DNA of 64,000 nucleotides from an uncultured Pseudomonas sp. (GTDB lineage Bacteria > Pseudomonadota > Gammaproteobacteria > Pseudomonadales > Pseudomonadaceae), in the NCBI RefSeq assembly GCF_946885955.1, contig NZ_CAMPHI010000019.1, positions 1 to 64,000 on the forward strand, read 5' to 3'. Positions 20,709 to 35,718 of this stretch are shown here, piece after piece (the first letter of the stretch is position 1; each line of letters begins with the position of its first letter). The notes beneath the pieces were generated by a model. It was not told the origin of the DNA, did no database searches, and saw nothing but the letters and a program-made list of their open reading frames with translations. Made by a program: the position numbers and the translations under genes.

Positions 20709-21488
20709 ATGCGTCCGCACGTATTCCTGTTGTCCGCGATGTTTTTCCTGCCCTGGACAGCCCAGGCCGCAACCGCCGAACAAGCCGAACAAGTGGCGAA
20801 ACGCGCAGATGAAAACCTGCACCACTACGGCGACATGCGGGTGAACCTGGAGATGCAGCTGATCAGCCCCAGCGGCGCAACCGCAAGCCGCGAGCTGCGC
20901 GTGCGCAGCCGCGAAGCCGGGGATGACCGCGACCAGACCCTGATGGTGTTCGAAACCCCACGCGACGTCGCCGGCTCGGGCCTGCTGTCATACAACCGGG
21001 CGACCGGCGAAGACCAGCAGTGGCTGTATCTGCCCAGTCTCAAGCGCATCAAGCAGATCGGTGCGCGCAACAAGTCCGGGCCCTTCATGGGGTCCGAATT
21101 TGCCTACGAAGACATAGTCACGCCGTTCTGGCAGAAATTCAGCTACCGCGATCTGACCGAGACGGAACTGGACGGCATGCCCAGCTACCGCCTGGAACGC
21201 ATCCCCAAGGATCAGCACTCGGGCTATGCCCGCCAGCTGGTATGGATCGACAAGGCGCAGCATCTGATCCGGCGCATCGACTATTTCGACCGGCGCAACA
21301 GCCTGCTCAAGACCTATACCGCCGCGGACTTCCAGCAGTACCCGGGCGATAACTGGCGGCCTGGGGAAATGCTCATGGTCAACCATCAGACCGGCAAGCA
21401 GACGCGCCTGCTGTGGCGCGATTACCGCTTCGATACCGGTCTGACGGCCGCCGATTTCAGCCAGAACGCCTTGCTGCGGGTGCGTTGA
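20709..21488 (+). CDS. LolA-like outer membrane lipoprotein-sorting protein
   Basis: This first gene of the ten-gene operon encodes 259 residues with a signal peptide (MRPHVFLLSAMFFLPWTAQA). The mature protein belongs to the LolA/LolB-like 'outer membrane lipoprotein-sorting' family that accompanies MMPL/RND exporters. Typical segments are LMVFETPRDVAGSGLLSY, EDQQWLYLPSLKRIK and SGPFMGSEFAYEDI. Such proteins form an open beta-barrel half-pipe that carries lipids across the periplasm. Here it probably receives the product of the operon from the RND protein. The start follows agaaggatctgcc. It is separated by 2 bp from the next gene. Confidence 0.85.
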   Translation: MRPHVFLLSAMFFLPWTAQAATAEQAEQVAKRADENLHHYGDMRVNLEMQLISPSGATASRELRVRSREAGDDRDQTLMVFETPRDVAGSGLLSYNRATGEDQQWLYLPSLKRIKQIGARNKSGPFMGSEFAYEDIVTPFWQKFSYRDLTETELDGMPSYRLERIPKDQHSGYARQLVWIDKAQHLIRRIDYFDRRNSLLKTYTAADFQQYPGDNWRPGEMLMVNHQTGKQTRLLWRDYRFDTGLTAADFSQNALLRVR

Positions 21489-21490
21489 AC

Positions 21491-22780
21491 ATGGTCGAGC
21501 ACATGTCCCCCCGCCTCTGGCCCCTGGGGTTGGCGGCCAGCCTGATCGCCAGCCTGCCGGCCCAGGCATTGCAACAGCGCCATGAGCTGGGCCTGGAAAC
21601 CTGGCAGTTCTCCGAACCAGGTGCCCAGGGCCAGGCCCGCACGAACGCCTCGGTGAGCCTGCGCAGCGAGTTCTGGCACGACCTCGATAATGGCCGCGAG
21701 CGCCTGGTGCTGGTGCCGTTCGTGCGCGGCGACCTGCACGATGGGCGGCGCAGCCATTTCGATCTGCGCGAGGCCAGTTGGGACCACCGCGGCGACGATT
21801 TCGAGTTGCGTGCGGGCATCCACCAGGTGTTCTGGGGGGTGACCGAAGGCGTGCACCTGGTCGACATCATCAACCAGACCGACCAGGTGGAAAGCCTGGA
21901 TGGCGAAGAGAAACTCGGCCAGCCGATGATCAACCTGAGCGTCGAGCGCGGCCAGCAGTTGCTTGACCTGTTTCTTCTCGTCGGCGCCCGCGAACGGCGC
22001 TTTCCCGGTGCCGATGGGCGCCTGCGTCTGCCGCTGGTGGTCGACGAGGACCTGACCCGCTACGAGTCCGCCCGGGAGGACCGCCGCCTCGATCTGGCCG
22101 CACGCTGGCAGCTCAACCTGGCGAGCCTGCGCCTGGGTGTCAGCGGCTTCTCCGGCACCGCCCGCGAACCGCAATTGCGCCCGGTCATCGACCTCGCCCA
22201 GGTGCGCTTCAGCGACGGCCGCGCGGTCGGCTTCGCCCCCGGTTACCAGCCGCTGCTGGCAGCGTGTTACCCGCTGATCGAGCAATTTGGCGTGGACCTG
22301 CAGCTGACTCAGGGCGACCTGCTGTGGAAGCTCGAAGCCATCCGCCGCAACGGCGGCGAGGAAAACTTCGAGGCCGCCGATGCCGGCCTGGAATATACCC
22401 AGGTCGGCACCTTCGGCACCCGCCTGGATCTCGGCTGGTTGCTCGAATACCTCTACGACAGCCGAGGCGATCACGCCAGCACGCCTTTCCAGGACGACCT
22501 GCTGCTGGGTTGGCGCCTGGCGTTCAACGATGCGGCCAGCAGCACGCTACTGGCCAGTTTGATTCTCGACCGCCATAGCGGCGAGCGCCTGGTCAGCCTC
22601 GAAGGCCAGCACCGCTTCAGCGATGACCTGCTGCTGGAGTTGGAGCTGCGCGTTTTCGCCGGCGGTGCCGAGCGGCCGCAAAACGCCTTGGAGTTCGTCA
22701 ACGCGCCCGACACCCGACACAAGTTGCGCCCATTGCTACAGGACGATTTTCTGCGCCTGCAACTGAGCTGGTTTTTTTAA
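21491..22780 (+). CDS. Outer membrane beta-barrel protein of the lipid operon
   Basis: The protein has 429 residues, a signal peptide (RLWPLGLAASLIASLPAQA), many amphipathic strands and a C-terminal QLSWFF, the aromatic signature of outer-membrane barrels. The AGIHQVFWGVTEGVHLVDIINQTD segment resembles that of barrels found beside LolA-like and MMPL genes. No enzyme motif is seen. A role as outer-membrane acceptor or channel for the exported lipid is inferred from context. The start may be 21491 (ATG) or the ATG at 21503. A 60-base gap separates it from the RND gene. Confidence 0.75.
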   Translation: MVEHMSPRLWPLGLAASLIASLPAQALQQRHELGLETWQFSEPGAQGQARTNASVSLRSEFWHDLDNGRERLVLVPFVRGDLHDGRRSHFDLREASWDHRGDDFELRAGIHQVFWGVTEGVHLVDIINQTDQVESLDGEEKLGQPMINLSVERGQQLLDLFLLVGARERRFPGADGRLRLPLVVDEDLTRYESAREDRRLDLAARWQLNLASLRLGVSGFSGTAREPQLRPVIDLAQVRFSDGRAVGFAPGYQPLLAACYPLIEQFGVDLQLTQGDLLWKLEAIRRNGGEENFEAADAGLEYTQVGTFGTRLDLGWLLEYLYDSRGDHASTPFQDDLLLGWRLAFNDAASSTLLASLILDRHSGERLVSLEGQHRFSDDLLLELELRVFAGGAERPQNALEFVNAPDTRHKLRPLLQDDFLRLQLSWFF

Positions 22781-22840
22781 ACGAAGTAATTACTGGAACA
22801 GCCGCGACACGCGGCACTTCGCTACCGCCAGAGGCTTGAT

Positions 22841-25297
22841 ATGAAACGATTGTCCAACGCCACCGCCATCGAGGGCCTCGCAGAGAACTGGAGCAGCCGC
22901 CAGGCCGCGCGCCTGGCCAGCGCGATAGTCGGCCACCCGCTGATCGCCATGCTGCTCGGCCTGCTGCTGGTCGCGGCCTGCGCTGTCGGCATGGGCGGCT
23001 ATCGCTATTCGTTGGATCACCGGGTGTTCTTCAGCCCGGAAAATCCCCAGCTGCAAGCCTTCGAAAAGCTGCACGAGGATTACTCGAAAACCGATACCGT
23101 GATCATCGCCCTCGCGCCCAGGTCCGGCTCGGTGTTCACTGCGCCATTTCTCGCGGTGCTGCGCGACCTGACCGAGCAGAGCTGGCAACTGCCCTATGTA
23201 CAGCGCGTCGAGTCGCTGAGCAACTTCCAGCACGTGCAGGTCGAGGGCGACAACGTCGACACCGCCGACCTGGTGGAAAATCCCGCCGCACTGAATAGCG
23301 CCGAGCTCGCCGAAATCCGCCGCATCGCCGTGAACGAGCCGTTTCTGGTCGATGCCCTGATCAACCCCGAAGGCACTGTCGCCGGCGTGCGCCTGACCTT
23401 GAACATGCCCGGTTTGAAGCAGGTCGAGGAAGTCCCCGAGGTGGTCTTCGCGATTCGCCGACTGGTCGCCGAGCTGCACCGCGAACACCCGGATATCGAC
23501 ACCCATCTGGCCGGACAGACGATCGCCAATGAGGCCTTCCCGGAGGAGTCCCAGGCCGATTTCGTGCGGGTCTGGCCCTGGTTCATGCTGACCATGATGC
23601 TGGTGCTGGCGCTGCTGTTTCGTAACGTCAAGGCGATGTTGGTAGTCGTCTCGGCCTGCCTCTTGGCGGTGTTCGCCGGCGCCGGCCTGGTGGGCTTTTT
23701 CAAGCCGGTGGTCAACGATGCGGTGGTGGTGGCGCCGATCATGATCCTGGCCCTGGCCTTCGCCGACGGCATCCACCTGGTGGTGACCTGGACCCAGGCC
23801 ATGCATGCCGGCGAGGACAAGCGCAGCGCCATGGTCCACAGCCTGCGCAGCAACATGGGCGCCATGCTCCTGACCACCCTGCTCACCGCCGCGGGTTTTC
23901 TGACCCTGCACTTCAACGACTCGCCGCCGTTCCGCATCATGGGTTACATAGTCGCCGCCGGGGTGGTCATCGCCCTGCTGCTGACCCTGTTGCTCAGCGC
24001 ACCGCTGCTGACCCTGTTGCCGGGCCATCCGCCGCGGCGCATCTGGCCGCTGATGAGCCGCGACTCGGCGCAGATGGAGCGCCTGGCGGAATTCGTCATC
24101 CGTCGCCGCCAAGCACTGCTGGTCGCCTTGCTGGTATTCGCCGGCGGGCTGATCGCCTGCGTCCCGGCCAATCGGATCAACGACGACATCGTCAAGTATT
24201 ACACCCCGGGCACGCCGTTCCGCCAGGACATGGAGTTCGTCAACGACAACCTCACCGGCATCGCCGAGATCAATTATTCGCTGCCCGCCGGCGGCCCCGA
24301 GCAGATCGTCGAACCGGCCTACCTGCGCCGTCTCGATGCCTTCGCCCACTGGCTCAAGACCCAGCCCTACGTCACTCAGGTCAACTCCCTGGTCGATGTG
24401 ATCAAGCGGGTCAATCAGGTGATGCATGGCGACGATCCGGCCTATTACCGGATTCCCGATACGCGCGAGGAAGTCGCCCAGTACCTGCTGCAGTACGAAC
24501 TGTCGCTACCCCTGGGCATGGACCTGAACTACCTGATCCGTTTCGACCGTTCCGAGTCGCGTCTGCGGGTCGCGGTCGGCAGCTCCAGCGGTCAGGCGAT
24601 CATCGGCCTGGATCGGGCCGCGCAAGCCTGGCAGCGCGATCATCTACCGGCCGCCATGCAAACCCCGGGCGCCTCGCTGTCGCTGATGTTCGCGAATATC
24701 GGCGCGCGTTCGATCGGCGGCATGTTCGTCGGCATGCTCGGCTCGCTGATCGGCGCCTCGCTGCTCGTGGTGCTGCTGTTCGGCGCCTGGCGCCACGGCC
24801 TGGCCTGCTTCATCGGCAACCTGCTGCCGATCGGCATGGCCTTCGGCGTCTGGGGTCTGTTCAACGGCAATGTCGACGTCGGCCTGACCCTGGTACTGGG
24901 CATCGCCTTCAGCGTGGTGATCGATGACACCATCCATTTCATCAGCAAATACGAGCGCGCCAGGCGCCAGGGCCTGAGCAGCGAGGATGCGGTGCGCAGC
25001 GCCTTTCGCACGGTCGGCTACGCGCTGATCACCACCAGCCTGGTACTCGGCCTGGGCTTCGCCTGGCTGGCCAATTCGAATATCCAGATCACCGTCAACA
25101 ACGCCATTGTCATCTGCCTGAGCATCGCTTTCGCCCTGCTGATGGACCTGTTCCTGCTGCCGATCCTGTTCCTCCTCACCGACAAACGCAGCATGGCCCG
25201 CGAGCCGGCAACGACGCCATCGACGCTGGATGTCCCCAGTGCGCAGGCCGATCTGCCGGCCCCGCCCACCCTGACCAAGGGGGTCCACCATGGATAG
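22841..25297 (+). CDS. MMPL/RND superfamily lipid exporter
   Basis: This 818-residue inner-membrane protein has the RND layout: TM1 (about 33-52), a large periplasmic loop, five helices (about 240-400), TM7 (about 425-443), a second loop, and five helices at about 625-785. Family motifs are VVAPIMILALAFADGIHLV and GLTLVLGIAFSVVIDDTIHFISKY, with acidic residues in TM4 and TM10 expected to carry protons. It resembles MMPL/HpnN-type lipid transporters more than drug pumps: no membrane-fusion protein gene or TolC is present, and a LolA-like carrier is encoded in the same operon. The ligand is presumably the lipid made by downstream enzymes. Confidence 0.88.
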   Translation: MKRLSNATAIEGLAENWSSRQAARLASAIVGHPLIAMLLGLLLVAACAVGMGGYRYSLDHRVFFSPENPQLQAFEKLHEDYSKTDTVIIALAPRSGSVFTAPFLAVLRDLTEQSWQLPYVQRVESLSNFQHVQVEGDNVDTADLVENPAALNSAELAEIRRIAVNEPFLVDALINPEGTVAGVRLTLNMPGLKQVEEVPEVVFAIRRLVAELHREHPDIDTHLAGQTIANEAFPEESQADFVRVWPWFMLTMMLVLALLFRNVKAMLVVVSACLLAVFAGAGLVGFFKPVVNDAVVVAPIMILALAFADGIHLVVTWTQAMHAGEDKRSAMVHSLRSNMGAMLLTTLLTAAGFLTLHFNDSPPFRIMGYIVAAGVVIALLLTLLLSAPLLTLLPGHPPRRIWPLMSRDSAQMERLAEFVIRRRQALLVALLVFAGGLIACVPANRINDDIVKYYTPGTPFRQDMEFVNDNLTGIAEINYSLPAGGPEQIVEPAYLRRLDAFAHWLKTQPYVTQVNSLVDVIKRVNQVMHGDDPAYYRIPDTREEVAQYLLQYELSLPLGMDLNYLIRFDRSESRLRVAVGSSSGQAIIGLDRAAQAWQRDHLPAAMQTPGASLSLMFANIGARSIGGMFVGMLGSLIGASLLVVLLFGAWRHGLACFIGNLLPIGMAFGVWGLFNGNVDVGLTLVLGIAFSVVIDDTIHFISKYERARRQGLSSEDAVRSAFRTVGYALITTSLVLGLGFAWLANSNIQITVNNAIVICLSIAFALLMDLFLLPILFLLTDKRSMAREPATTPSTLDVPSAQADLPAPPTLTKGVHHG

Positions 25298-25374
25298 CCG
25301 CCGCCCTTCGCTTTCGCGCCAATTACGCCCACCCGGCGTCGCCCGATCCGTCTCAGCAACATTCGCAGTTATTC

Positions 25375-25435
25375 CGGCTAACAGGGCGTTGAAAAACAAC
25401 ATGCGACGACTAGACGAGGCTGCGTTCAACGCCGC
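25375..25435. repeat. Palindromic intergenic repeat inside the operon
   Basis: ggcgttgaa at 25385-25393 pairs with ttcaacgcc at 25425-25433. The left side, ggctaacagggcgttgaaaa, repeats the sequence seen at 8539-8558. It occupies the only long gap (173 bases) in the lipid operon. Confidence 0.6.
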
Positions 25436-25470
25436 ATCGCCTAGCGCAGCAGTTTTGCAACGGCCTGCCA

Positions 25471-26457
25471 ATGATGAACCTAGCCATGCACAGCCACACC
25501 CTGACCTCCGCCTCGCCCTTCGCCAGCCGCTTCGCCGCCTGGCTCAGCGAGCGTTTTCCCTTCGCCAATGCCTTGCTGTTCTTCTTCATCTACCTCAGCA
25601 CTGCAACCGTGGTTCGTGCAGGCTACGCCGGCGCTATCGAGCTGAGCCTGCGCGACCTGATTGGCTGCCTGATCACCTGGTCGTTCTTCCTGCTGCTGCG
25701 GATTCTCGACGAGCACAAGGACTACGCCCAGGACTGCCTGAACCACCCGCAGCGAGTGCTACAGAGCGGCCTGATCGGGCTGCGCCACCTGAAGATCGCC
25801 GGCGGGCTGGCGCTGCTCGCGCAGGGTCTGTGGTCACTGGCGCTGGACCAGCAATGGGGTGAACTGCCGGGGCCCGTCAGCCTGGCCTGGGCGATCCTGC
25901 TGGTCTGGACCGGGCTGATGACCAAGGAGTTCTTCGTCCCCACCTGGCTCAACCGGCACCTGACCTGGTACGCCATCTCGCACATGCTGGTGATGCCCCT
26001 GGCGGTCTGGTGGCTGGCCAATCTGGCCCTGCCTGGCGCCGAGCTGAGCCCGGCACTGTTGAGCGCGATGAGCCTGGCCTTGATCAGCGGCTTCTGCTTC
26101 GAGATCACCCGCAAGACCAAAGGCCCGGAAGAGGAACGCGAAAGCATCGACTCCTACTCGCGGATTTTCGGCAGTCGCGGTGCGGCATTGCTGGTGCTGG
26201 TGCTGGTCAGCGCCATGCTCGGTAACCAGTTGTGGCTGCTGGAGCAGCTGCTCGGGGCTTTGCCGCTCTGGGCGCTGGTTCTGCTGCTGGTGGTCTACGG
26301 CCTGGCCGTCCGCCAGTTGCTCGCCTTTATCCGCCGCCCTTCTGCGGCCCTGCGCAATAAGAACGAAGCATTCGTAGCCCTGGCCATGTTGGTCGGCTAT
26401 GCCGTGCTGATCGCCGCCTTGGCGGTCGAGCGCGGCCTGACTTTTTCGATAATTTGA
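25471..26457 (+). CDS. UbiA superfamily prenyltransferase
   Basis: This 328-residue membrane protein has about eight to nine helices. The first aspartate-rich motif is D80-x3-D84-x3-D88 in RILDEHKDYAQD, followed by HPQRVL. The second conserved region is KEFFVPTWLN (152-161) and then EITRKTKGPEEERESIDSYS (211-230). These match a branch of the UbiA family in which 'R..DE.KD...D...HP.R' replaces the classical NDxxD. UbiA enzymes move a prenyl chain from its diphosphate to an acceptor within the membrane. The acceptor is unknown; in this operon it could be a glycerol- or polyol-phosphate or a lipid headgroup. The start has a weak ribosome site. Confidence 0.72.
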   Translation: MMNLAMHSHTLTSASPFASRFAAWLSERFPFANALLFFFIYLSTATVVRAGYAGAIELSLRDLIGCLITWSFFLLLRILDEHKDYAQDCLNHPQRVLQSGLIGLRHLKIAGGLALLAQGLWSLALDQQWGELPGPVSLAWAILLVWTGLMTKEFFVPTWLNRHLTWYAISHMLVMPLAVWWLANLALPGAELSPALLSAMSLALISGFCFEITRKTKGPEEERESIDSYSRIFGSRGAALLVLVLVSAMLGNQLWLLEQLLGALPLWALVLLLVVYGLAVRQLLAFIRRPSAALRNKNEAFVALAMLVGYAVLIAALAVERGLTFSII

Positions 26458-26467
26458 GGAATAAGAC

Positions 26468-29098
26468 ATGCAATTCGCCAACAAAGACAACACACCAAGC
26501 AAGCCCTTGGGCGAACACAACCAGGCCTGCCTGCCGCTGAATTCTCCCACCCTCGACGCCGTCAGCACCGACGCGCAGGCGGTCCTGGGCAGCGCACTAA
26601 GAGACCTGCAACTGCACAACTCCGACCTGGGCTTCGTGATGCCCACGATGCCGCCGCAGCAGATGACCGGGAGCGAGAGCACACCCCAGGATGCTCAGTT
26701 GCAGATGCGCGGCTGCCCCGCGGCCGAGGTGAGCTACGACGAATTGACCCTGCCCAAGGTACCGGCCCGCGGCCTGTATACCGAGCAAGCCCGCCAGGAG
26801 CGCCTGGCCTTCGCCCGCGAGCAGACCGGCGCGCGGCTTTGCGAGGTCGAGCAGACCCGTCTGGACCCGCGCAAGTTGGTCGCCAATATCGAGGCCTTTA
26901 TCGGCGCGGTGGAAGTCCCGGTGGGCCTGGCCGGCCCTCTGCATATCAAGGGCGAGCACGCCACCGGCCTGTTCTACGCGCCCATGGCCACCTCCGAAGG
27001 CGCTCTGCTGGCCTCGGCCACCCGTGGCGCCACCGCCTTGTCGCGCTCGGGCGGGGTGATCGCCCGGGTAATCCACCAGCGCATGATGCGCGTACCGCTG
27101 TTCGCCTTCGGCTGCATGCAGCAGGCGCTGCTGTTTGCCGAGTGGGTACAGCAGCGGCGTCAGGAGCTGGCGCTGGTGGTGCGCAAGTACTCCAACTTCG
27201 CCAGGTTGACGGAAGTCCAGGCCCAGGTCATGGGCCGCAACGTGCATGTGCATTTCATCTACGAAACCGGCGATGCCGCCGGGCAGAACATGACCACAAG
27301 CTGCACCTGGCAGGCCTGCCAGTGGATCCTCGGGCAACTGGAGCGTTTCGACGGCCTCGAGGTGCTGGATTTCATGATCGAGGCCAACCTGTCCAACGAC
27401 AAGAAGGTCACCTACCAATCCTTCGTCAACGGCCGCGGCATGCGGGTGATGGCCGAGGCGGTGCTGAGCGATGCAACCTGCCAGCAGGTGCTCAAGGTCA
27501 GCACCAGGCACTTGGCCAACGCCTACCAGCACTGCGTCAGCGGCTCGATAGCGGCCGGCATGATCGGTTTCAACATCAATGTCGCCAATATGGTCGCCGC
27601 CATGTTCACCGCCCTGGGCCAGGACATCGCCTGCGTACACGAATCGGCCCTGGCCCAGCTGCACCTGGAGCTCAATGAACAGGGCGACCTGTACTGCATG
27701 CTGAACATGCCTTCGCTGGTCATCGGAACCGTAGGCGGCGGCACCAGCTTGCCGCAGCAACGCGAATGCCTGGAGCTGCTCGACTGCGCCGGCCCCGGCA
27801 AGGTGCGCAAGCTGGCCGAGGTGATAGCCGCCTATAGCCTGGCTCTGGAGCTGTCGACCCTGGCGGCCGTAGCCGCCGACCAGTTCGCCCGCGCCCATGA
27901 GCGGCTCGGCCGCAATCGCCCGGTCGATTACCTGAAGCTGGCCGACCTGGATACCCAGTTCTTCTACGAGGCCCTGAGCCAGAGCGGCCTCTGCGAGCTA
28001 CGCCCTTACGCCGTGGCCCCCCTGCAATTCGACAACCGGGGTTCGAGCATCATCACCGAACTTACCGCGCACAAGGTCAGCAAGCTGCTCGGGCACCTGC
28101 CCTTCCTGCTCAGGACCTATGACGGCGATGTGCGGGTGATGGTCAAGATCAAGCCCCTGGACGCTGAAGTGATCATCATGCTCAACGGTATCGCCAGCCT
28201 ATGCGACGCGCGCCTGGCCAGGGCGTTCAACCAGTACCGCGAGCAACTCGGTTTCAAGGGCTGCCATGTGCGCGAACTGGCGGTGATGAGCCAGCGCGAC
28301 CCACGTTTTACCCGCAACGCGCCGCGTGTCTATGGCGTGGTCGAAGACCAGGGACGCGAAGCCTACGTGATCATCGAGGAGCTGCTCGAAGGTCTGGAGT
28401 TGATGGACAGCGCCGACGACACCAGTGGCTGGAGCCAGGCGCATCTGGAGGCGGCGATCCGCGGCATCGCCGAGGTGCACAGCATCTGGTACGGCCGCGA
28501 GGAGCAGCTCAAGCAGCAGCCCTGGTTGACGGACTACCCCAGCGCCGCCGGCATGCTGGAAAAACGCGACCTGTGGGAAGCGCTCGGTGCCCATGCCCGG
28601 GAGGAATTTCCGCAATGGTTCGATGATCGGCACCTGGGTCTGCTGCGCGACATGGTCAACGGCATCGGCGACTGGTGGGCGGATATCGAGCGCATGCCGC
28701 GTACCCTGATCCACAACGACTTCAACCCGCGCAACATCGCCCTGCGCAACGGCCCGGAAGGCCTGCGCCTGTGCGCCTACGACTGGGAGCTGGCGACCCT
28801 GCACCTGCCCCAGCACGACCTGGCCGAACTGCTCGGCTTCACCCTGATCGCACCGGTGCAGCCAGCCACGGTGCAGCACTATCTGGAATTGCACCGCCTG
28901 GAGCTGCAGCGGCACAGCTGCCAGGCCATCGACCCCGAACAGTGGCGCTACGGTTACCAGTTGGCCCTGCGTGATCTGCTGGTCAATCGCCTGCCGCTGT
29001 ACCTGATGGCCCATAGCTTCCGCCATTTCCCCTTTATGGAAAGGGTCTACGCCACTTTCCGCCAGCTACTGCAAATCGAAGAGGCTCGCCTGTCATGA
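26468..29098 (+). CDS. HMG-CoA reductase fused to an APH-type phosphotransferase
   Basis: The protein has 876 residues. Residues about 95-485 form a class I type HMG-CoA reductase: AFIGAVEVPVGLAGPL, catalytic Glu177 in MATSEGALLAS, cofactor region TGDAAGQNM, Lys312/313 in LSNDKKVTY, Asp386 in GQDIACVHES, GTVGGGTSLP, and catalytic His477 in RAHERLGRN. Residues about 530-870 form an aminoglycoside-phosphotransferase-like kinase: Brenner motif H749-N-D751-FNPR-N756 and metal-binding Asp772 in YDWELA. All key residues are kept in both halves. The reductase would turn an acyl-CoA into a primary alcohol (mevalonate if HMG-CoA) and the kinase could phosphorylate it. The first 90 residues are unassigned. 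It starts 10 bp after the prenyltransferase gene and overlaps the next by four bases. Confidence 0.85.
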   Translation: MQFANKDNTPSKPLGEHNQACLPLNSPTLDAVSTDAQAVLGSALRDLQLHNSDLGFVMPTMPPQQMTGSESTPQDAQLQMRGCPAAEVSYDELTLPKVPARGLYTEQARQERLAFAREQTGARLCEVEQTRLDPRKLVANIEAFIGAVEVPVGLAGPLHIKGEHATGLFYAPMATSEGALLASATRGATALSRSGGVIARVIHQRMMRVPLFAFGCMQQALLFAEWVQQRRQELALVVRKYSNFARLTEVQAQVMGRNVHVHFIYETGDAAGQNMTTSCTWQACQWILGQLERFDGLEVLDFMIEANLSNDKKVTYQSFVNGRGMRVMAEAVLSDATCQQVLKVSTRHLANAYQHCVSGSIAAGMIGFNINVANMVAAMFTALGQDIACVHESALAQLHLELNEQGDLYCMLNMPSLVIGTVGGGTSLPQQRECLELLDCAGPGKVRKLAEVIAAYSLALELSTLAAVAADQFARAHERLGRNRPVDYLKLADLDTQFFYEALSQSGLCELRPYAVAPLQFDNRGSSIITELTAHKVSKLLGHLPFLLRTYDGDVRVMVKIKPLDAEVIIMLNGIASLCDARLARAFNQYREQLGFKGCHVRELAVMSQRDPRFTRNAPRVYGVVEDQGREAYVIIEELLEGLELMDSADDTSGWSQAHLEAAIRGIAEVHSIWYGREEQLKQQPWLTDYPSAAGMLEKRDLWEALGAHAREEFPQWFDDRHLGLLRDMVNGIGDWWADIERMPRTLIHNDFNPRNIALRNGPEGLRLCAYDWELATLHLPQHDLAELLGFTLIAPVQPATVQHYLELHRLELQRHSCQAIDPEQWRYGYQLALRDLLVNRLPLYLMAHSFRHFPFMERVYATFRQLLQIEEARLS

Positions 29099-31845
29099 CT
29101 GAGTATTTCTACCCTCAGGAACAGGCGTTGTTCCTGCCCCCCGAACAGCTCGGCGGCAAAGCCGCCAACCTCGCGCGCCTGAGCCGCGAGGGCCTGCCCG
29201 TGCCGCGCTGGTGGGTGCTGAGCACGGACGCCTTTCAATTGCTGCTCGAGCGCAATCGACTCAGCGACTTGATCGACAGGCGCCTGCGGCGGGTCGCCCG
29301 GAACAACGCCGGCATCGAGGCCCTGGCCCAGCAAATCCAGCAGCAGGTGCTGGCCGCGAGTATCCCCACCGAGTTGCACACGCAATTGGCCGATGCCCTG
29401 GCCGGCCAGGAGGAGGTCTTGTTCGCCGTGCGTTCCTCGGTGCAGGGCGAAGATGCCCAGGGCGCTTCGTTCGCCGGGCAGATGGACAGCTTCCTGTTCC
29501 AGCACGGCCTCGCCAGCATCGAGCAGAGCCTGTTGCAGGTCGCAGCGTCGGCCTTCAACGCCCGCGCCCTGCACTACCGTCTGAGCAAAGGCATCGCCCT
29601 GAGCGATATCCGCATCGCGGTGATCGTCCAGGAGATGGTCGAAGGCGAGGTTTCCGGGGTGATGTTCACCGCCCACCCGGTTACCGGCAGCCGCCGCCAT
29701 GCGCTGATCTCCGCGGCCTGGGGGGTGGGCGAAGGCATAGTCGCCGGCATCTGCAATACCGACGAATACAGCGTCGGCCTGTTCGATGACGGGATAGAAG
29801 TACAACTGGCGGACAAGGACGTCGCCGTACGCTTCGACCGCGCCGCTGGACGCGGCACCCAGACAAGCCCGGTCGATACGGCTCAACGCCATGCCCGCAC
29901 CCTCGACGATCGACAGGTGCTCGCCCTGCGCGACCTGGGCCGGCGCATCGCCAACCTGCAGCGCTCTCCCCAGGACATCGAGTGGACGTTGCGCGACGGA
30001 CAGTTCCACATCCTGCAAACCCGCCCCATCACCCGCCTGCCGGCCCCCAGCCAGCCGAGCGGACGGCGCCTGGTGTTCGACAACTCGAACATTCAGGAGT
30101 CCTACTGCGGGGTAACCACGCCGCTGACCTTCTCCTTCGCCAGCCGCGCCTATGCCACTGTCTATGAGCAGACCTTTCGCCTGATCGGCGTGCCCGAGCG
30201 GCAGATCCTGGCCCATCGCGACATGCTCGAAAATATGCTCGGGCTGATCCACGGCCGGGTCTACTACAACATCAACAACTGGTACCGCAGCTTGCTGCTG
30301 TTGCCCTCGTTCAAGACCAACAAGGCCGATATGGAACGCATGATGGGCCTGACCGATCCGGTCGACCTGATCGAGGATCGCCCGCTCAGCGGCCGCGAAA
30401 AACTCGCCAAACTGCCCGGCATGCTGCGCGCCCTGTTTCTGCTGACCCGCGGTTTTCGTCGCATGGATACCCTGCTCGGCGAATTCCGCCAGATGTTCGA
30501 GCAGACCTACCGCAGCATTGCCCGTAATGAACTGCACTGCCTGAACGTCGGCGAGCTGATCGAGGAAGTCCGGCGCCTGGACCGCGAACTGCTGCAACGC
30601 TGGACCACGCCGATCATCAACGACTTCTACGTAATGATGATGAACGGCCGAGTGCACCGCGCCCTGGTCGCCGCCGGCATAAGCAACCCGGAGCTGCTGC
30701 AGAACAACCTGCTGTCCGGCGAGGACGGCATCGAAAGTACCGAGCCGACCAAGCTGCTGTTGCGCCTGTGCGCCCATGTGCGCACCCAGCCCGAAGTACA
30801 GGCGCTGATCGAGCAGGCCGACAACGCCAGCCTGCTCGACCGGGTGCAGGTTTGCGACCCGGACTTCCATGCCCAGTGTCTGCATTACATCGAGCAATAC
30901 GGCGACCGCAGCATGGGCGAACTCAAGCTCGAATCCATCACCCTGCGCCAGGATCCTAGCTTCCTCTTCGCCATCCTCAAGAACTACCTGAGCCGACCCG
31001 ACCTGACCCCGCAAAGCCTGGCGGCCAGGGAGGCGAGCTTTCGCCAGGAGGCCGAAGCGCAGGCCTTCACCGCCGTCGGTCGTCAGGGCGGCCGTGCCCT
31101 GCGGCGTTTCAAAAACCATCTGGGCCGGCTGCGTGCGGCGATTCGCAACCGCGAGAACATGCGCCTGGCACGCACGCGCACATTCGGCCTGTACCGCGAG
31201 CTGTTTCTCGAGATCGGCCAGCAGCTGGCCATGGACCAGGTGCTGGCCGAACCGCGCGATATCTTCTACCTGAGCATCGATGAACTCTATGCGCTGAACG
31301 ACGGCCGTGCGGTGCAAACCGAACTGAAAAGCCTGGTCGCCGCCCGCCAGGCCGAATTCGCCGGCTACCTGAAAAAGGACCTGCCCCATCACTTCTGGAC
31401 CTGGGGCATGGTCTACCGGCACAACGCCTATGCCTACCCCGGCACCCCACAGGTGCAGGGCACAGGGGAGATCCGCGGCATCGGTTGTTACCCCGGCCTA
31501 GTCGAGGCAAAGGTCCGCTTGATCTTCTCGCCCCAGGACGAGCTGTCGCTCAACGGCCAGATCCTCTGCACGGTGCGCACCGATCCGGGCTGGGCGCCGC
31601 TGTTTCCCAGCGCCGGCGGCATTCTGGTGGAACGCGGCTCGACCCTCTCGCACTCCGCGGTGGTCGCCCGCGAGCTGGGCATCCCGGCCATCGTCGGCAT
31701 TCCCGGGATCACCGCACTGTTACGCGACGGCGAGCGGGTGCGCATGGATGGCGCCGCCGGCACCATCGAACGCCTGGACCGGCCCAGGAGCAGCGCCAAT
31801 TCAACGAGCGTCGTTCAGCCGGCGCAGGAGACCGCCCATGGCTGA
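29095..31845 (+). CDS. PEP synthase/rifampicin phosphotransferase-like enzyme
   Basis: This 916-residue protein has an N-terminal ATP-grasp domain (LGGKAANLARLSREGLPVP, FAVRSSVQGEDAQGASFAGQ, IVQEMVEGEVSGVMFT, DIEWTLRDGQFHILQTRP). A long central region of unknown function follows, then the C-terminal swivelling phosphohistidine domain with His853 in GSTLSHSAVVARELGIPA. No pyruvate/PEP TIM-barrel domain is recognisable, so it resembles rifampicin phosphotransferase, which transfers the beta-phosphate of ATP to a hydroxyl. In this operon it may phosphorylate an alcohol or alkyl phosphate. It overlaps the reductase-kinase gene by four bases and the next gene by eight. Confidence 0.8.
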   Translation: MTEYFYPQEQALFLPPEQLGGKAANLARLSREGLPVPRWWVLSTDAFQLLLERNRLSDLIDRRLRRVARNNAGIEALAQQIQQQVLAASIPTELHTQLADALAGQEEVLFAVRSSVQGEDAQGASFAGQMDSFLFQHGLASIEQSLLQVAASAFNARALHYRLSKGIALSDIRIAVIVQEMVEGEVSGVMFTAHPVTGSRRHALISAAWGVGEGIVAGICNTDEYSVGLFDDGIEVQLADKDVAVRFDRAAGRGTQTSPVDTAQRHARTLDDRQVLALRDLGRRIANLQRSPQDIEWTLRDGQFHILQTRPITRLPAPSQPSGRRLVFDNSNIQESYCGVTTPLTFSFASRAYATVYEQTFRLIGVPERQILAHRDMLENMLGLIHGRVYYNINNWYRSLLLLPSFKTNKADMERMMGLTDPVDLIEDRPLSGREKLAKLPGMLRALFLLTRGFRRMDTLLGEFRQMFEQTYRSIARNELHCLNVGELIEEVRRLDRELLQRWTTPIINDFYVMMMNGRVHRALVAAGISNPELLQNNLLSGEDGIESTEPTKLLLRLCAHVRTQPEVQALIEQADNASLLDRVQVCDPDFHAQCLHYIEQYGDRSMGELKLESITLRQDPSFLFAILKNYLSRPDLTPQSLAAREASFRQEAEAQAFTAVGRQGGRALRRFKNHLGRLRAAIRNRENMRLARTRTFGLYRELFLEIGQQLAMDQVLAEPRDIFYLSIDELYALNDGRAVQTELKSLVAARQAEFAGYLKKDLPHHFWTWGMVYRHNAYAYPGTPQVQGTGEIRGIGCYPGLVEAKVRLIFSPQDELSLNGQILCTVRTDPGWAPLFPSAGGILVERGSTLSHSAVVARELGIPAIVGIPGITALLRDGERVRMDGAAGTIERLDRPRSSANSTSVVQPAQETAHG

Positions 31846-32959
31846 TTCCCGAATGGGCGCCTGGCAACCCGAGATGCCCCTGCCCGAAGCCTTTATCGAG
31901 TTGCCCCGGCAACTTTATGCCGACGACCCGCACTGGCTAGGCGAGGACGCCCGGGCCCTACAGCGGCAATTCTCCACGGCCAATCCTTGGTTCGATAGCG
32001 GCCGCGCCTGGTTGGGGGTGCTGCCTGGGCAAGCGCGCCTGGCCGGCTTCTTTAACGATCAGCGAATCGAGGGCGAGCCAGCGGCGTTCTTCGGCTTTTG
32101 GGAGAGCATCGACGACCCCAGGCCAAATCGACTGCTATTCCAGGGCCTGCGCGATTGGGCCCATGACCTCGGCGCCAAACGCCTGTACGGGCCAATCGAT
32201 TTCCGCACTTTCGGCGCTTACCGCTTGCGTCTGGATGCCTTCGAGGCCGGCTGTTTTCCCGGCGAACCCTGGAACCCACCCTATTACCCGGCGCTGCTCG
32301 AGTACCTGGGGCTGAGCCTGCGCCACCGTTACGTCTCGACCTTCGACGACCTAAGCAAGTCTGCGGCCTCGGCGCGTCCGGTCTATGAGCGGCTCAAACC
32401 CAAGTTTGCAGGAGTGGTCAACCTGATACCTTTGACCGGCGATTTCTGGATGGCCCACCTGGATCAGTTGCATGCCTTCGTCGAGACCGTGTTCGGCGCC
32501 AATTTCGCCTACACGCCGCTGTCCCGCGCGGCCTTCGAGTGGCATTGCGGGCAAGCCCTGGCCGCACGTTTGTGCCCCCACAGCTCAGTGCTGGCCCTGA
32601 CTCCTGAAGGGCACATCGCCGGATTGTTTCTGACCTGCGCGGATTTCAGCCCGCTGCTGCGCCAGGGCAATCCGCAGCGCCTGCCGGCTTCGAGTCTCAA
32701 GCCGGCGGAGCATCTGACACTGTTACCCCAGCCGCGCCAGTTACTGGCGAAGACCGCGGCTGTGCGCCCGGAATTTCGCAAGCATGGCCTGTTCACCGCC
32801 CTAGGCTGTGAAATGTTGCTGCGCGCCGAAGCCCATTACCAGCGGATAGTCGGCGCCCTGGTGCGCGAGGACAACAACTCCTGGCAGTTCGCTCAGCACC
32901 ATATGTGCCATAGCGGCAGCGTCCTGCACCATTACGGCCTGTACCAGAGCGACCTATGA
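31838..32959 (+). CDS. GNAT-fold acyltransferase-like protein
   Basis: The protein has 373 residues and belongs to a family annotated as GNAT-like or N-acyltransferase. Hallmarks are AKRLYGPIDFRTFGAYRLRLD (the 'L.GP..F..WG.yR' pattern), GEPWNPPYYPALLEYLGL, and TAAVRPEFRKHGLFTALGCE, which resembles the GNAT acyl-CoA loop. The activity is unknown; transfer of an acyl group to an amine or alcohol of the lipid is inferred from its place next to an AMP-forming ligase. The start at 31838 has gcaggag upstream and overlaps the previous stop, and the next gene overlaps its own stop by four bases. Confidence 0.65.
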   Translation: MADSRMGAWQPEMPLPEAFIELPRQLYADDPHWLGEDARALQRQFSTANPWFDSGRAWLGVLPGQARLAGFFNDQRIEGEPAAFFGFWESIDDPRPNRLLFQGLRDWAHDLGAKRLYGPIDFRTFGAYRLRLDAFEAGCFPGEPWNPPYYPALLEYLGLSLRHRYVSTFDDLSKSAASARPVYERLKPKFAGVVNLIPLTGDFWMAHLDQLHAFVETVFGANFAYTPLSRAAFEWHCGQALAARLCPHSSVLALTPEGHIAGLFLTCADFSPLLRQGNPQRLPASSLKPAEHLTLLPQPRQLLAKTAAVRPEFRKHGLFTALGCEMLLRAEAHYQRIVGALVREDNNSWQFAQHHMCHSGSVLHHYGLYQSDL

Positions 32960-34563
32960 ACAGTGCGAACTTCTGCGCCGCCATAGTCGCCGCCGCCCGC
33001 CGCCACCCCCAGCGTCTGGCCCTGCGCGTACCCCGGGTGCAGGACGACTATCGCAACGCCGATCAACTGAGTTATGCCGAACTATTGGCCCGTTCGGCCC
33101 AGTTGCAGCAAGGCCTGTTGCAGGCCGGGTTACGGCGCGGCGCGCGGGTACTGCTGCTGGCCCGGCCGGGCTTGGACCTCTACACGGCGATCCTCGCGCT
33201 GCTCGGCCTGGGCATGGTGCCGGTGTTGCTGGATCGGGGCATGAGCCGCCCGCGCCTGCTGGCCTCGATCCGCCTGAGTGGGGCGCAGACCCTGCTCGGC
33301 GAGCGCCAATTAATCGAGCGCTGGTGGTTGCTGCCCAGCCTCTGGCGCCTTGAGCGCCTGGGTCTGGACGGCGCCTGCCTCGGCGTGCGCGCCCTGCCCT
33401 GGGCGGCGAAGGCCACGGCCCAGAGTTTTCGTTGCGAGCCGGTGACCGCCGACAGTCATGGTCTGATCAGCTTCACCTCCGGCAGCACCGGCCTGCCCAA
33501 AGGCGCCGACCGCACCCATGCCAGCCTTACCGCCCAGCACCTGGCCCTCCACGAGTACTGGCCGGAGCAGCACGCCGACATCGACCTGCCGTGTTTTCCG
33601 GTGCTGGTGTTGCACAACCTCTGCTGCGGCATCGGCACCGTGCTGCCGGCCACCGACCTGGCCGCGCCCGGTCAGGTGCAACCGGCGGCGGTGCTGCGGC
33701 AGATCCAGCTGGAAGGCATCACCCGCCTGTCTGGCGCCCCGGCGTACCTCCAGCGCCTGACGCGCCATGCCCGGGAATGCGGCCTGCGTTATCCCGGCGT
33801 GCGCTCGCTGGTGGTCGGCGGCTCGACCCTGACCGAGCCGCTGGTGCGCGACTGCCTGGCGGTATTTGCCAACGCCAAGGCGCTGGTGGTCTATGGCTCG
33901 ACCGAAGCCGAACCGATCGCCAAGGTGGAAATGGCCGAACTGCTGCGCGACTGGCAACAGCAACCGGGCCATCTGGTCGGCCGGCCGGCAACCATGACCG
34001 AGGTGTGCATCGTCGATCCATTGCTACCGCTGAGCGACGAAGCCTCGGTATGGCGTGCGCAACTCGCGGCCGGGCAACTCGGCGAGATACTGGTGGCAGG
34101 TCCCCACGTGCTCAAGGCCTATGTGGATAACCCCCGGGCGACTGCCGAAACCAAGATCGCCCGCGGCGACGGCCTGGTCTGGCACCGCACCGGCGATGTC
34201 GGCACCTTCGACGACCAGGGCCGGCTGTGGCTCAGCGGCAGACTCAAGGACGCCGTGATGGTGGATGGCCAACGGCATTACACCTACCCCCTGGAAAAAG
34301 CCCTCGACGCCCTGCCCGGCGTCGCTCGCAGCGCCCTGATCAGTCGCGACGAGGACCATCCGGACGATCTGGTGCTGGTCATCGAAGGCCAGGTACCGGC
34401 CGGGTTGCCTGCGCTGCTGGCACGCTTCGGTTTTAGCCACGCACACCTGGCGCAGACCGAGCGCATCCCGGTGGACGGCCGGCACAACAGCAAAATCGAC
34501 CGCCCGGCCCTGCGTGACGCCTTGCGCAAGGGTCGCCTGCCCCTCAAGGAGCACTTGCCATGA
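32956..34563 (+). CDS. AMP-forming acyl-CoA/acid ligase
   Basis: This 535-residue adenylate-forming enzyme has the phosphate-binding loop FTSGSTGLPKG (173-183), the motif VVYGSTEAEPIAK, and RTGDVGTFDDQGRLWLSGRLKD ahead of the C-terminal lid. The lysine expected late in the chain is in HNSKIDRPAL. The 'GSTEAEPI' form recalls OleC-type and long-chain ligases rather than acetyl-CoA synthetases. It probably activates a fatty or hydroxy acid as acyl-AMP for the acyltransferase next door or makes an acyl-CoA for the reductase. It is coupled to both neighbours by ATGA overlaps. Confidence 0.85.
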   Translation: MNSANFCAAIVAAARRHPQRLALRVPRVQDDYRNADQLSYAELLARSAQLQQGLLQAGLRRGARVLLLARPGLDLYTAILALLGLGMVPVLLDRGMSRPRLLASIRLSGAQTLLGERQLIERWWLLPSLWRLERLGLDGACLGVRALPWAAKATAQSFRCEPVTADSHGLISFTSGSTGLPKGADRTHASLTAQHLALHEYWPEQHADIDLPCFPVLVLHNLCCGIGTVLPATDLAAPGQVQPAAVLRQIQLEGITRLSGAPAYLQRLTRHARECGLRYPGVRSLVVGGSTLTEPLVRDCLAVFANAKALVVYGSTEAEPIAKVEMAELLRDWQQQPGHLVGRPATMTEVCIVDPLLPLSDEASVWRAQLAAGQLGEILVAGPHVLKAYVDNPRATAETKIARGDGLVWHRTGDVGTFDDQGRLWLSGRLKDAVMVDGQRHYTYPLEKALDALPGVARSALISRDEDHPDDLVLVIEGQVPAGLPALLARFGFSHAHLAQTERIPVDGRHNSKIDRPALRDALRKGRLPLKEHLP

Positions 34564-35198
34564 AAACCCTGGACACACCATCGCGCTATATCGTCCGCCT
34601 GAACCCCGCGGACATCCTCACCCTGAGCGGGCTACTGACCTCGGCCCTGGCCATCCTCAGCGCCCTGCATGGCCTGTTCGCGCTGGCCAGCGCCTGGCTG
34701 TTCCTGGCCATGCTCGGCGATGCCCTGGACGGCATCGTCGCCCGCAGGTTGAAGATCGAACGCCCATTCGGCCGTTACCTTGATGGCTTCATGGATATGC
34801 TGATCTACCTGGTGGCGCCGGCCCTGACCCTCTATTGGCAGGGTTTCGACGGCCTCTGGGGGCTGTTTCTGCTGCTATTGATCGGCTGCGGCTGCACCCG
34901 CCTGGCGGTATTCAACGATATCGGCAACATCCGCGAAGGCAATCAGCTGGCCTATCTGGGCATGCCGGTGTTCTGGAGCCTGTTCGGCCTCGGCTCCTAC
35001 CAGCTGCTGGTGCTATGGCTGCCGCCGCTATGGCTGCACATCCTGCTCGCCGTGGCCATAGTCGCGTTCGGCAACGCCATGTTGCTGCGCCGCCCCTTCT
35101 TCAAATTCAAGCGGCTCTCGCACATCCTCGGCCTGACCCTAGGCGGCTTCGTGCTGCTGGCTGCGCTGCAATGGTGGCTGGAGAGCGGCGTTGCGTAA
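34560..35198 (+). CDS. CDP-alcohol phosphatidyltransferase
   Basis: This 212-residue membrane protein has about six helices and the complete family signature: D54-x2-D57-G58-x2-A61-R62-x8-G71-x3-D75-x3-D79 (GDALDGIVARRLKIERPFG.., with D75 and D79 following). All four aspartates that bind metal and act in catalysis are present. It would condense a CDP-activated lipid alcohol with a second alcohol such as glycerol phosphate, inositol or serine; the motif does not reveal which. It is translationally coupled to the ligase gene (four-base overlap) and to the CarS-like gene that follows, the enzyme expected to provide its CDP-activated substrate. Confidence 0.88.
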   Translation: MKTLDTPSRYIVRLNPADILTLSGLLTSALAILSALHGLFALASAWLFLAMLGDALDGIVARRLKIERPFGRYLDGFMDMLIYLVAPALTLYWQGFDGLWGLFLLLLIGCGCTRLAVFNDIGNIREGNQLAYLGMPVFWSLFGLGSYQLLVLWLPPLWLHILLAVAIVAFGNAMLLRRPFFKFKRLSHILGLTLGGFVLLAALQWWLESGVA

Positions 35199-35718
35199 TG
35201 CCCTGTTGATCGCCCTGTATCTGCAGGTGCCGCTAGTCATCGGCGGCGTGCTACATATGCTGGCGGTGACCCGTAACTTGCTGCCGGCCCTGCGTGTGCC
35301 CATTCATACCGGCCTGTTCGGTGCCAATAAAACCTGGCGCGGCCTGCTGCTGATGCCGCTGCTAACCGCCTTCGGCGCGCTGTTGCTGTGGCCGAGCGAA
35401 CGCTGGCTGGGTGAACAGGCGGTCTTCGCCCAACCTCTGTGGTGGGTCGGCCTGATCGCCGGCCTGGCCTATGTGCTCGCCGAACTACCCAACTCCTGGC
35501 TCAAACGCCGCCTCGGCATCGCCCCCGGCGCCACACCCTCGCTCTGGGTGCTACTGGGCGACCAGCTGGACTCCGGCATAGGCGTGGCCCTGGCCTATTG
35601 GCTGGTGCTGGACCAGCCAGCCACAGTCTGCCTGCTCTACATCCTGACCTTCCCCCTGACCGCCCTGCTGGTCAAACGCCTGCTGTACCAAGGGCGGCTC
35701 AAGCAGTCGGCGGTGTAG
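35191..35718 (+). CDS. CDP-archaeol synthase (CarS/DUF46)-like enzyme
   Basis: This 175-residue protein has about five membrane helices. It shows the CarS-type features GANKTWRG (44-51), ELPNSWLKRRLGI (98-110) and the acidic motif DQLDS (124-128), analogous to the 'KRR.gi..G...D.lD' pattern of archaeal CDP-archaeol synthase and its bacterial relatives. Such enzymes use CTP to activate an unsaturated alkyl or lipid phosphate, giving a CDP-lipid. Its place directly after a CDP-alcohol phosphotransferase fits that chemistry. The start is TTG at 35191 with gagagcgg ahead, inside the end of the preceding gene (eight-base overlap). It is the last gene of the operon; no terminator is visible. Confidence 0.75.
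   Translation: MRNALLIALYLQVPLVIGGVLHMLAVTRNLLPALRVPIHTGLFGANKTWRGLLLMPLLTAFGALLLWPSERWLGEQAVFAQPLWWVGLIAGLAYVLAELPNSWLKRRLGIAPGATPSLWVLLGDQLDSGIGVALAYWLVLDQPATVCLLYILTFPLTALLVKRLLYQGRLKQSAV

Follow-up and report, generated by a model that had tools for sequence, protein, structure and literature searches.

In a 64,000-nucleotide stretch of DNA from an uncultured Pseudomonas sp. (contig NZ_CAMPHI010000019.1, positions 1 to 64,000; the window), ten consecutive genes, g1 to g10, form a cluster that we read, with a probability of about one half, as an operon that would turn fatty alcohols into an alkyl phospholipid, likely ether-linked, and pass the product to the outer membrane. The gene set, its order, the gene fusions, the conservation across phyla and the residue patterns behind this reading were observed directly. 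The central gene, g5, joins a reductase of the HMG-CoA reductase (HMGR) fold to a kinase. The reductase FcrA, a homologue of this half, and its suggested role in ether lipids are already known from Grossi et al. 2025 (PMC11948995); the kinase fusion and the operon appear to be new.

As an earlier note on this DNA had claimed, all ten open reading frames (ORFs) lie on the + strand, between 20709 and 35718, and they are free of internal stops. The five junctions from g5 to g10 (the HMGR to the CarS gene), also described in that note, are overlaps of 4, 8, 4, 4 and 8 bases, beginning with g5/g6, and the junctions from g1 to g5 are gaps of 2, 60, 173 and 10 bases, in gene order. For g2 and g7, the starts used are ATG 21491 and ATG 31838, instead of those of the longest ORFs. 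The G+C content of the operon genes is 62-69% (61.5% in the window), and a stretch of 45% G+C begins at about 36 kb, after the operon. Promoter and terminator scans of the locus gave a signal no higher than that of shuffled sequence. The product families previously proposed for the ten genes largely stand by library matches (LolA_like, MMPL, HMGR-kinase, PPDK/phosphoenolpyruvate (PEP)-synthase type, AMP-binding, CDP-OH_P and, in NCBIfam, UbiA); CarS is matched weakly, below cut-off, and the GNAT and barrel assignments come from structural models (Table 1).

Table 1. The ten genes of the cluster, their predicted products and the matches or models from which they were named.
Gene	Product	Position	Strand	Match or model
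g1	LolA-like periplasmic lipid carrier	20709..21488	+	PF17131 190 bits
g2	predicted outer-membrane beta-barrel	21491..22780	+	AlphaFold2 model
g3	MMPL/RND exporter	22841..25297	+	PF03176 93 bits
g4	UbiA-superfamily transferase, predicted ether-bond former	25471..26457	+	NF004617 268 bits
g5	FcrA-like HMGR-fold predicted fatty acyl-CoA reductase + APH-type kinase	26468..29098	+	PF00368, PF01636
g6	Rph/PigC-type ATP dikinase, predicted second phosphorylation	29095..31845	+	NF004883 1447 bits
g7	tandem-GNAT acyl/aminoacyl transferase	31838..32959	+	AlphaFold2 model, Foldseek
g8	AMP-forming acyl ligase	32956..34563	+	NF006754 533 bits, PF00501
g9	CDP-alcohol phosphotransferase, predicted serine-type head-group enzyme	34560..35198	+	PF01066
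g10	CarS-like CTP:lipid-phosphate cytidylyltransferase	35191..35718	+	NF003114 28 bits, below cut-off

The ten-gene cluster is a conserved unit, beyond chance association. A scan of genome contigs kept 80 loci of 564 relatives, and the fusion is present in 32 of these loci; neighbours were called with our own profiles at thresholds that we set ourselves. At 0.85 of the thresholds of the kinase-less and Bacteroidota survey, the 21 fused loci flanked by 5 kb or more on both sides have g6 nearby in 17 cases, UbiA in 13, CarS in 13 and CDP-OH_P in 12, followed by the AMP ligase (9), GNAT (7), MMPL (5), LolA (5) and g2 (3). All ten genes are found in the same order in L001, L002 and L003, and likewise in L124, where g8 and g9 are fused; four Paenibacillus loci have a five-gene core without g1-g3, g7 and g8; and the trio of g4, g5 and g6 is shared by loci assigned in their records to Pseudomonadota, Bacillota, Bacteroidota, Myxococcota and Thermodesulfobacteriota. 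At the thresholds used, none of 37 kinase-less loci and six kinase-less Streptomyces loci, many of them on short contigs, has g4, g6, g9 or g10.

Among 244 genomes of the order of L001, fused g5 is present in five; UbiA scores above 300 bits in exactly these five (next score 121), and CarS scores above 150 bits in six, all five fusion genomes included (next score 41). The Fisher p-values for co-occurrence with fused g5, 1e-10 for UbiA and 9e-10 for CarS, overstate the independence of the data, as the cut-offs were set after the gaps had been seen and the genomes are related, and the sources of the profiles overlap the sample (G001 in A1, A3 and A4; G086 in A4; HdN1, apparently G043, in A1); these points are to be counted with those weighed below. 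In 369 genomes of the class, the fusion was found in two, both with CarS, and CarS in four overall. A chance grouping in this strain, named in the earlier note as grounds for giving up the idea of one coupled pathway, does not agree with the way UbiA and CarS track the fusion in the 244-genome sample; the coupled genes, their co-occurrence and their fusions bear that idea out.

HMG-CoA_red (PF00368, 376 bits) covers residues ~96-485 of g5, and APH (PF01636, 38 bits) covers residues ~500-876. By alignment to solved HMGRs, the reductase half retains the class-I catalytic residues E177, K312, D386 and H477 but not the HMG-binding ones, since E305, Q354 and F473 occupy the positions of human S684, K735 and L862; in the archaeal HMGR 6hr7 the S684, L862 and K735 sites are occupied by S, L and K. 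K735 is the number that we assume for the HMG-binding Lys, which PMC11948995 prints as Lys795. These replacements fit the residue signature of FcrA. As described in the main text of PMC11948995, FcrA has the class-I HMGR fold with Glu, Lys, Asp and His kept, Glu in place of S684, a generally small residue in place of the HMG-binding Lys and a bulky one in place of L862; it reduces long-chain acyl-CoA (at least C14 in the assay) to the alcohol with NADPH, gave no reduction of HMG-CoA, and is proposed by its authors to feed ether lipids in some cases.

We surveyed these residues in 111 homologues, with 38 fused rows (L001 and L081 being one gene, and the other rows related to each other), 62 kinase-less rows and five Bacteroidota cluster reductases among them; L029, apparently a broken fused gene, was counted as kinase-less, here and in the survey of kinase-less loci. 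All 38 fused rows retain the catalytic Glu, Lys, Asp and His; in these rows the S684 position is E (35) or D (3), the K735 position is never K and the L862 position is always F. The FcrA pattern in g5 means that the supposedly isoprenoid half of the operon is to be read as fatty-alcohol chemistry: the reductase half is predicted, from these residues and the assayed homologue, to make fatty alcohol from acyl-CoA, which the g8 ligase or host metabolism would supply. A tree of 87 of the 111 rows, with 6hr7 as the archaeal outgroup and published FcrA sequences not knowingly among them, has three branches, namely the fused rows with the Streptomyces rows, the Bacteroidota clusters and the kinase-less rows, at 100, 99 and 99% in the Shimodaira-Hasegawa-like approximate likelihood ratio test (SH-aLRT). 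Omitted from it by name were L081 (the L001 gene), L082 and L083, three rows cut at contig ends (L010, L068 and L071) and the seemingly broken L029; thinning removed 17 more, from L086-L110. The fused rows thus have a branch of their own, with the Streptomyces rows inside, and have Phe at the L862 position, where the FcrA of N. pharaonis, the archaeal member of the assayed group, has Trp according to PMC11948995. Unlike FcrA as published, g5 is fused to a kinase within a UbiA/dikinase/CarS/CDP-OH_P operon; a word search of the main text of PMC11948995 found no mention of a kinase, a phosphotransferase, UbiA, a gene cluster or CDP.

The earlier note had taken g5 for an HMG-CoA reductase with a part in isoprenoid chemistry, and this was not supported. 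That g5 makes mevalonate, or its phosphate, for an isoprenoid lipid would fit its PF00368 membership, the Lys at the K735 position in one of the five Bacteroidota cluster reductases and the matches to geranylgeranylglyceryl phosphate (GGGP) synthase in 2/2 Paenibacillus and 2/6 Bacteroidota carriers tested. However, the HMG-binding residues are lost and the FcrA signature is present throughout the fused rows, the assayed FcrA is inactive on HMG-CoA in the account of PMC11948995, and GGGP synthase (PF01884) had no match in six of eight gammaproteobacterial carriers and partial ones in the other two (39 and 47 of 226 positions, the longer just over cut-off). We consider this explanation very improbable; a mevalonate role of g5 was set aside on the reductase residues. 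The absent or partial GGGP synthase in these eight carriers likewise argues that the gammaproteobacterial clusters do not follow the archaeal isoprenoid pathway, and the isoprenoid diether reading was rejected on this ground.

Close homologues of g5, among the 120 listed of 1193, include proteins from metagenome-assembled genomes (MAGs) labelled Pseudomonas sp., with 80-81% identity, which makes a Pseudomonas-like host probable. In its N-terminal region (26468-26755), a domain with a DVSK-like motif found in most aligned relatives is shortened by internal gaps. A PilZ-like domain, guessed by eye, was not supported by Pfam in P0083 or P0070; the domain could be an alkyl-carrier domain, as described for some FcrA. 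FcrA-like genes that fall in the fused branch are present at eight Streptomyces loci (L032, L033, L034, L035, L036, L038, L008 and L009); in six of these the gene has no kinase, and none of the eight loci has g4, g6, g9 or g10 within the flanks examined.

The kinase half of g5 retains K560, H749, D751, N756 and D772, and the corresponding Lys, His, Asp, Asn and Asp are kept in 38/38 fused rows; it would convert the alcohol into alkyl phosphate. This assignment is suggested by the intact residues and by an apparent replacement: in Bacteroidota, the five clusters whose reductase has no kinase all include a gene of family A5, which is matched in no other of L001-L110. The labels of its homologues (120 listed of 569) include phytol kinase (12), dolichol kinase (4) and diacylglycerol/polyprenol kinase (3), and the rest are other or none. 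NCBIfam gave no name to three A5 proteins, and of two scanned with Pfam one matched, below cut-off; the name phytol-kinase-like is our assumption from the mixed source labels and a sequence motif. A kinase standing in for the missing half of g5 is the likelier, though not the sole, reading of A5.

g6 would probably add the second phosphate, to give an alkyl diphosphate; this is the weakest of the kinase steps. In Pfam, g6 matches PPDK_N and PEP-utilizers, with no match to PEP-utilizers_C. It passes two PRK06241 models that bear the name PEP synthase (NF004883, 1447 vs 1063 bits; NF004881, 891 vs 883), but stays far below the cut-off of the PEP synthase model TIGR01418 (276 vs 740 bits). Its nearest PDB entries are 5fbs, the best, deposited as phosphoenolpyruvate synthase, and 5hv1, both of which we take to be rifampin phosphotransferases, and the phospho-His853 of the swivel domain is kept in 29/29 aligned homologues. 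If g6 were instead a PigC-like condensing enzyme and g8 an adenylating ligase, the cluster might make a diffusible or surface natural product, and the RND exporter would not be out of place; the score of g6 against PigC, 325 bits, is nevertheless far from the cut-off of 1300. A PigE-like aminotransferase in two variant clusters also speaks for such a product, but its scores of 304 and 322 are under the cut-off of 850, and the Paenibacillus and Desulfobacterales clusters have the lipid-type enzymes without this exporter set. A natural product is therefore improbable in our estimate. Those two variants retain UbiA, CarS and CDP-OH_P, with two dikinases and without FcrA, which counts among the points against an alkyl phospholipid made from fatty alcohols, and fatty alcohol may not be the sole entry point. 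The FcrA-less variants lie in L131 (5588-16928) and in L121 (10564-18372) with L134 (2106-9684), both of G134; a GNAT gene is present too, and L121 also has a phosphatidylserine (PS) decarboxylase, L134 an RND gene.

For g4, the sole NCBIfam model passed is NF004617 (268 vs cut-off 239), named only prenyltransferase, and the Pfam search of the window protein gave no match. Compared with PDB, its family profile A4 has the synthase of digeranylgeranylglyceryl phosphate (DGGGP), 6m31, as the top match (E 2.7e-15, 60 bits) and chlorophyll synthase as the second (E 5.9e-9), and R77, D80 and D88 are invariant across 19 aligned sequences. Under the alkyl phospholipid reading, g4 would join the alkyl diphosphate to a hydroxyl of glycerol phosphate or lysophosphatidate as an ether, in the manner of DGGGP synthase, and this use of an alkyl diphosphate by a UbiA enzyme is the weakest step of the whole proposal. 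UbiA might instead take an ordinary isoprenoid diphosphate, giving an isoprenoid and alkyl hybrid, or act like decaprenyl-phosphate phosphoribosyltransferase on an alkyl phosphate acceptor; the UbiA donors known to us are indeed all allylic diphosphates or phosphoribosyl diphosphate, and the acceptor would come from g5. However, there is no Pfam match to a prenyl diphosphate synthase among the ten proteins, and the comparison of the UbiA profile with PDB (E up to 1), a set in which the presence of a phosphoribosyltransferase of this kind is unverified, listed none. We regard this alternative as unlikely.

In the steps that would follow the ether bond, g10 would form a CDP-lipid and g9 would add serine, as their families, fusions and PS decarboxylase neighbours suggest. 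The best NCBIfam models for g9, neither of which reaches its cut-off, are archaetidylserine synthase (67 bits) and pssA (62 bits); the active-site Gly, Asp, Ala and Arg positions of its family are kept in 15/15 aligned sequences, and its counterpart in Sphingobacterium L069 has ClsA and pgsA as best models. g10 reaches 28 bits against NF003114 (cut-off 148) and has no Pfam match, but two of its fused relatives pass PF01864 (cut-off 22), L030 with 28.2 and L007 with 24.0, and L037 (19.5) falls below. CDP-OH_P-CarS fusions are present in L030, L122, L123, L125 and L133, and the AMP ligase is fused to CDP-OH_P in L124, to CarS in L037 and to both in L007. PS decarboxylase lies inside the module in L024, L017 and L121.

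The frequency of these g9-g10 fusions, with alkyl phosphate as the predicted g5 product, also suits a glycerol-free alkyl phospholipid, in which g10 would make CDP-alkyl directly from the alkyl phosphate, g9 would add serine, and UbiA and g6 would serve a separate decoration. Such a product leaves UbiA and g6, near 13 and 17 of the 21 fused loci, without a role in it, and the DUF3419 genes of the Bacteroidota clusters (presumably of the BtaA family, which acts on diacylglycerol) point to a glycerol acceptor; we hold it to be rather unlikely, compared with the ether-linked glycerolipid that we favour. DUF3419 genes were seen in L069 (15977-17158) and L040 (14648-15742), the two clusters scanned of the five with a kinase-less reductase; in L028 (3831-5918), where the reductase has its kinase, DUF3419 is fused to GNAT. 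They suggest a betaine-like head group in these Bacteroidota clusters. In L133 (8694-19411, G499) the AMP ligase carries a fused alpha/beta-hydrolase, and the cluster also has a formyltransferase-like gene.

The AlphaFold2 model of g7, from 13 sequences, is a tandem GNAT with a predicted local distance difference test score (pLDDT) of 89; its structural matches in Foldseek include 7q3a (E 6e-13), nearest MAB_4324, and also mycothiol synthase, FemX and MprF-type synthases. The window protein has no Pfam match, and Acetyltransf_1 is found in 4/13 family members. g7 may modify the head-group amine or add an acyl chain. g8 exceeds the cut-off of NF006754 (533 vs 478 bits), of the PRK09274 family, with olefin beta-lactone synthetase models second, and has PF00501; it may also share with g7 in modifying the lipid.

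Likely, g1-g3 are an envelope-type exporter set that sends the product to the outer membrane, and g3, g1 and g2 would carry it across the envelope. The model of g2, which has no Pfam match in the window protein, is mostly beta and barrel-like with an N-terminal signal-like helix, at a mean pLDDT of only 67, and its closest PDB structures are porins. An exported, unusual lipid had been proposed before: the phospholipid-type enzymes and the envelope-type exporter genes keep this proposal alive, without its isoprenoid-type half. LolA-like, MMPL and AMP-ligase genes also occur in wax ester, aryl polyene and hopanoid loci of known type, and a gene for wax ester synthase/diacylglycerol acyltransferase (WS/DGAT) adjoins the kinase-less relatives L060 and L052 and, in L005, is ~7 kb away from the fused gene, the last case counting against our reading as well. 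However, a ketosynthase-type gene is expected in aryl polyene loci, and the ten proteins have no Pfam match to WS/DGAT, ketosynthase or squalene-hopene cyclase; against the hopanoid-export model HpnN, g3 scores 65 bits (cut-off 752). An operon of these known types is extremely improbable, and the identity with an aryl polyene or hopanoid pathway that the earlier note wished to see checked was not found. Wax ester synthase lies beside the reductase in 2/37 kinase-less loci of the scan, L060 (9528-14397) and L052 (7514-12686), from Rhodothermales and Solirubrobacterales, where an acyl ligase accompanies the FcrA-like gene.

Besides FcrA, a close known system is the archaeal ether phospholipid pathway: the UbiA profile is closest to DGGGP synthase, CarS-like and archaetidylserine-synthase-like enzymes are present, in keeping with the archaeal kind of phospholipid enzymes claimed earlier, and PS decarboxylase is found in three loci. 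The present clusters differ in that none of the eight gammaproteobacterial carriers tested matches GGGP synthase over its full length, the chain is predicted to come from fatty acyl-CoA and not from isoprenoids, there are an extra kinase and dikinase, and the hosts are bacteria. In plant phytol salvage, VTE5, VTE6 and VTE2 are an alcohol kinase, a phosphate kinase and then a UbiA enzyme. The kinase-kinase-UbiA order is similar here, and the Bacteroidota clusters have a gene with phytol-kinase-labelled homologues; however, the second kinase would be an Rph-type dikinase, and a glycerolipid is the predicted acceptor. For bacteria of the Fibrobacteres-Chlorobi-Bacteroidetes (FCB) group, UbiA-type homologues of DGGGP synthase are described in PMC7852524, whose proposal, in the passages concerned, is based on GGGP and DGGGP synthase and isoprenoid chains, with CarS undetected in Cloacimonetes MAGs. 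In myxobacteria, fatty alcohol feeds an ether lipid through ElbD (via PMC11948995), but with a FarA-domain reductase and FadD, ACP and PlsC-like domains in one protein; the ElbD passage names no UbiA, CarS or dikinase. A full-text search of the open-licence literature found no description of the cluster, in agreement with the earlier statement that no described pathway matches it.

Several further observations weigh against an alkyl ether phospholipid. UbiA enzymes ionise allylic diphosphates; none is known to us to act on alkyl diphosphates, and phosphorylation of a phosphate monoester by an Rph-type enzyme is likewise not known to us. A saturated alkyl diphosphate at g4 would need another mechanism, or else the chain is 2-unsaturated (2-enoyl), which is possible because UbiA chemistry, as known to us, needs allylic donors. 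In the five Bacteroidota cluster reductases the K735 position is R (3), K (1) or Q (1), and Ser is found at the S684 position in 27/62 kinase-less rows. A phosphatidate cytidylyltransferase label is on 4 of the 120 listed A5 homologues, and at least two of the kinase-labelled ones also bear this name. The five Bacteroidota clusters are without g10, and three of them without g9; 4 to 9 of the 21 fused loci lack a core part (g6, UbiA, CarS or CDP-OH_P); and the flanks examined around the fusion of Streptomyces L008 and L009 contain neither g4 nor any of g6-g10. In G493, CarS (133 bits) is the sole cluster gene on a contig of 5.2 kb, and g9 and g10 of the window are named solely by models whose cut-offs they do not reach. 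Besides L121, PS decarboxylase was found in only two of L001-L110 in a search with the L121 protein, and one of these, L017, has it without a detected g9.

Everything past the alcohol step we infer. Taken more broadly, and at somewhat less than even odds, the cluster may represent a widespread bacterial pathway in which the last archaeal steps (the UbiA ether, CarS and serine) act on fatty alcohols supplied by a reductase-kinase of HMGR descent; UbiA would have a new donor, alkyl diphosphate, and the pathway an outer-membrane export line of its own. If this is true, bacteria would have an ether-phospholipid route beyond those known to us (plasmalogen/ester-reductase, AGPS/ElbD and isoprenoid), its central three genes being found together in five phyla, and the use of fatty chains by archaeal-style head-end enzymes would be relevant to the 'lipid divide'. 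Genes whose names mislead (HMG-CoA reductase, PEP synthase) would become testable lipid enzymes, and the RND/LolA exporter would gain a candidate cargo.

Just past the operon, within the stretch of 45% G+C, an ORF on the + strand (36331-37467) has an F-box match of 23.0 bits (Pfam cut-off 20.5) and weak deaminase matches under cut-off, and resembles an effector- or toxin-type protein.

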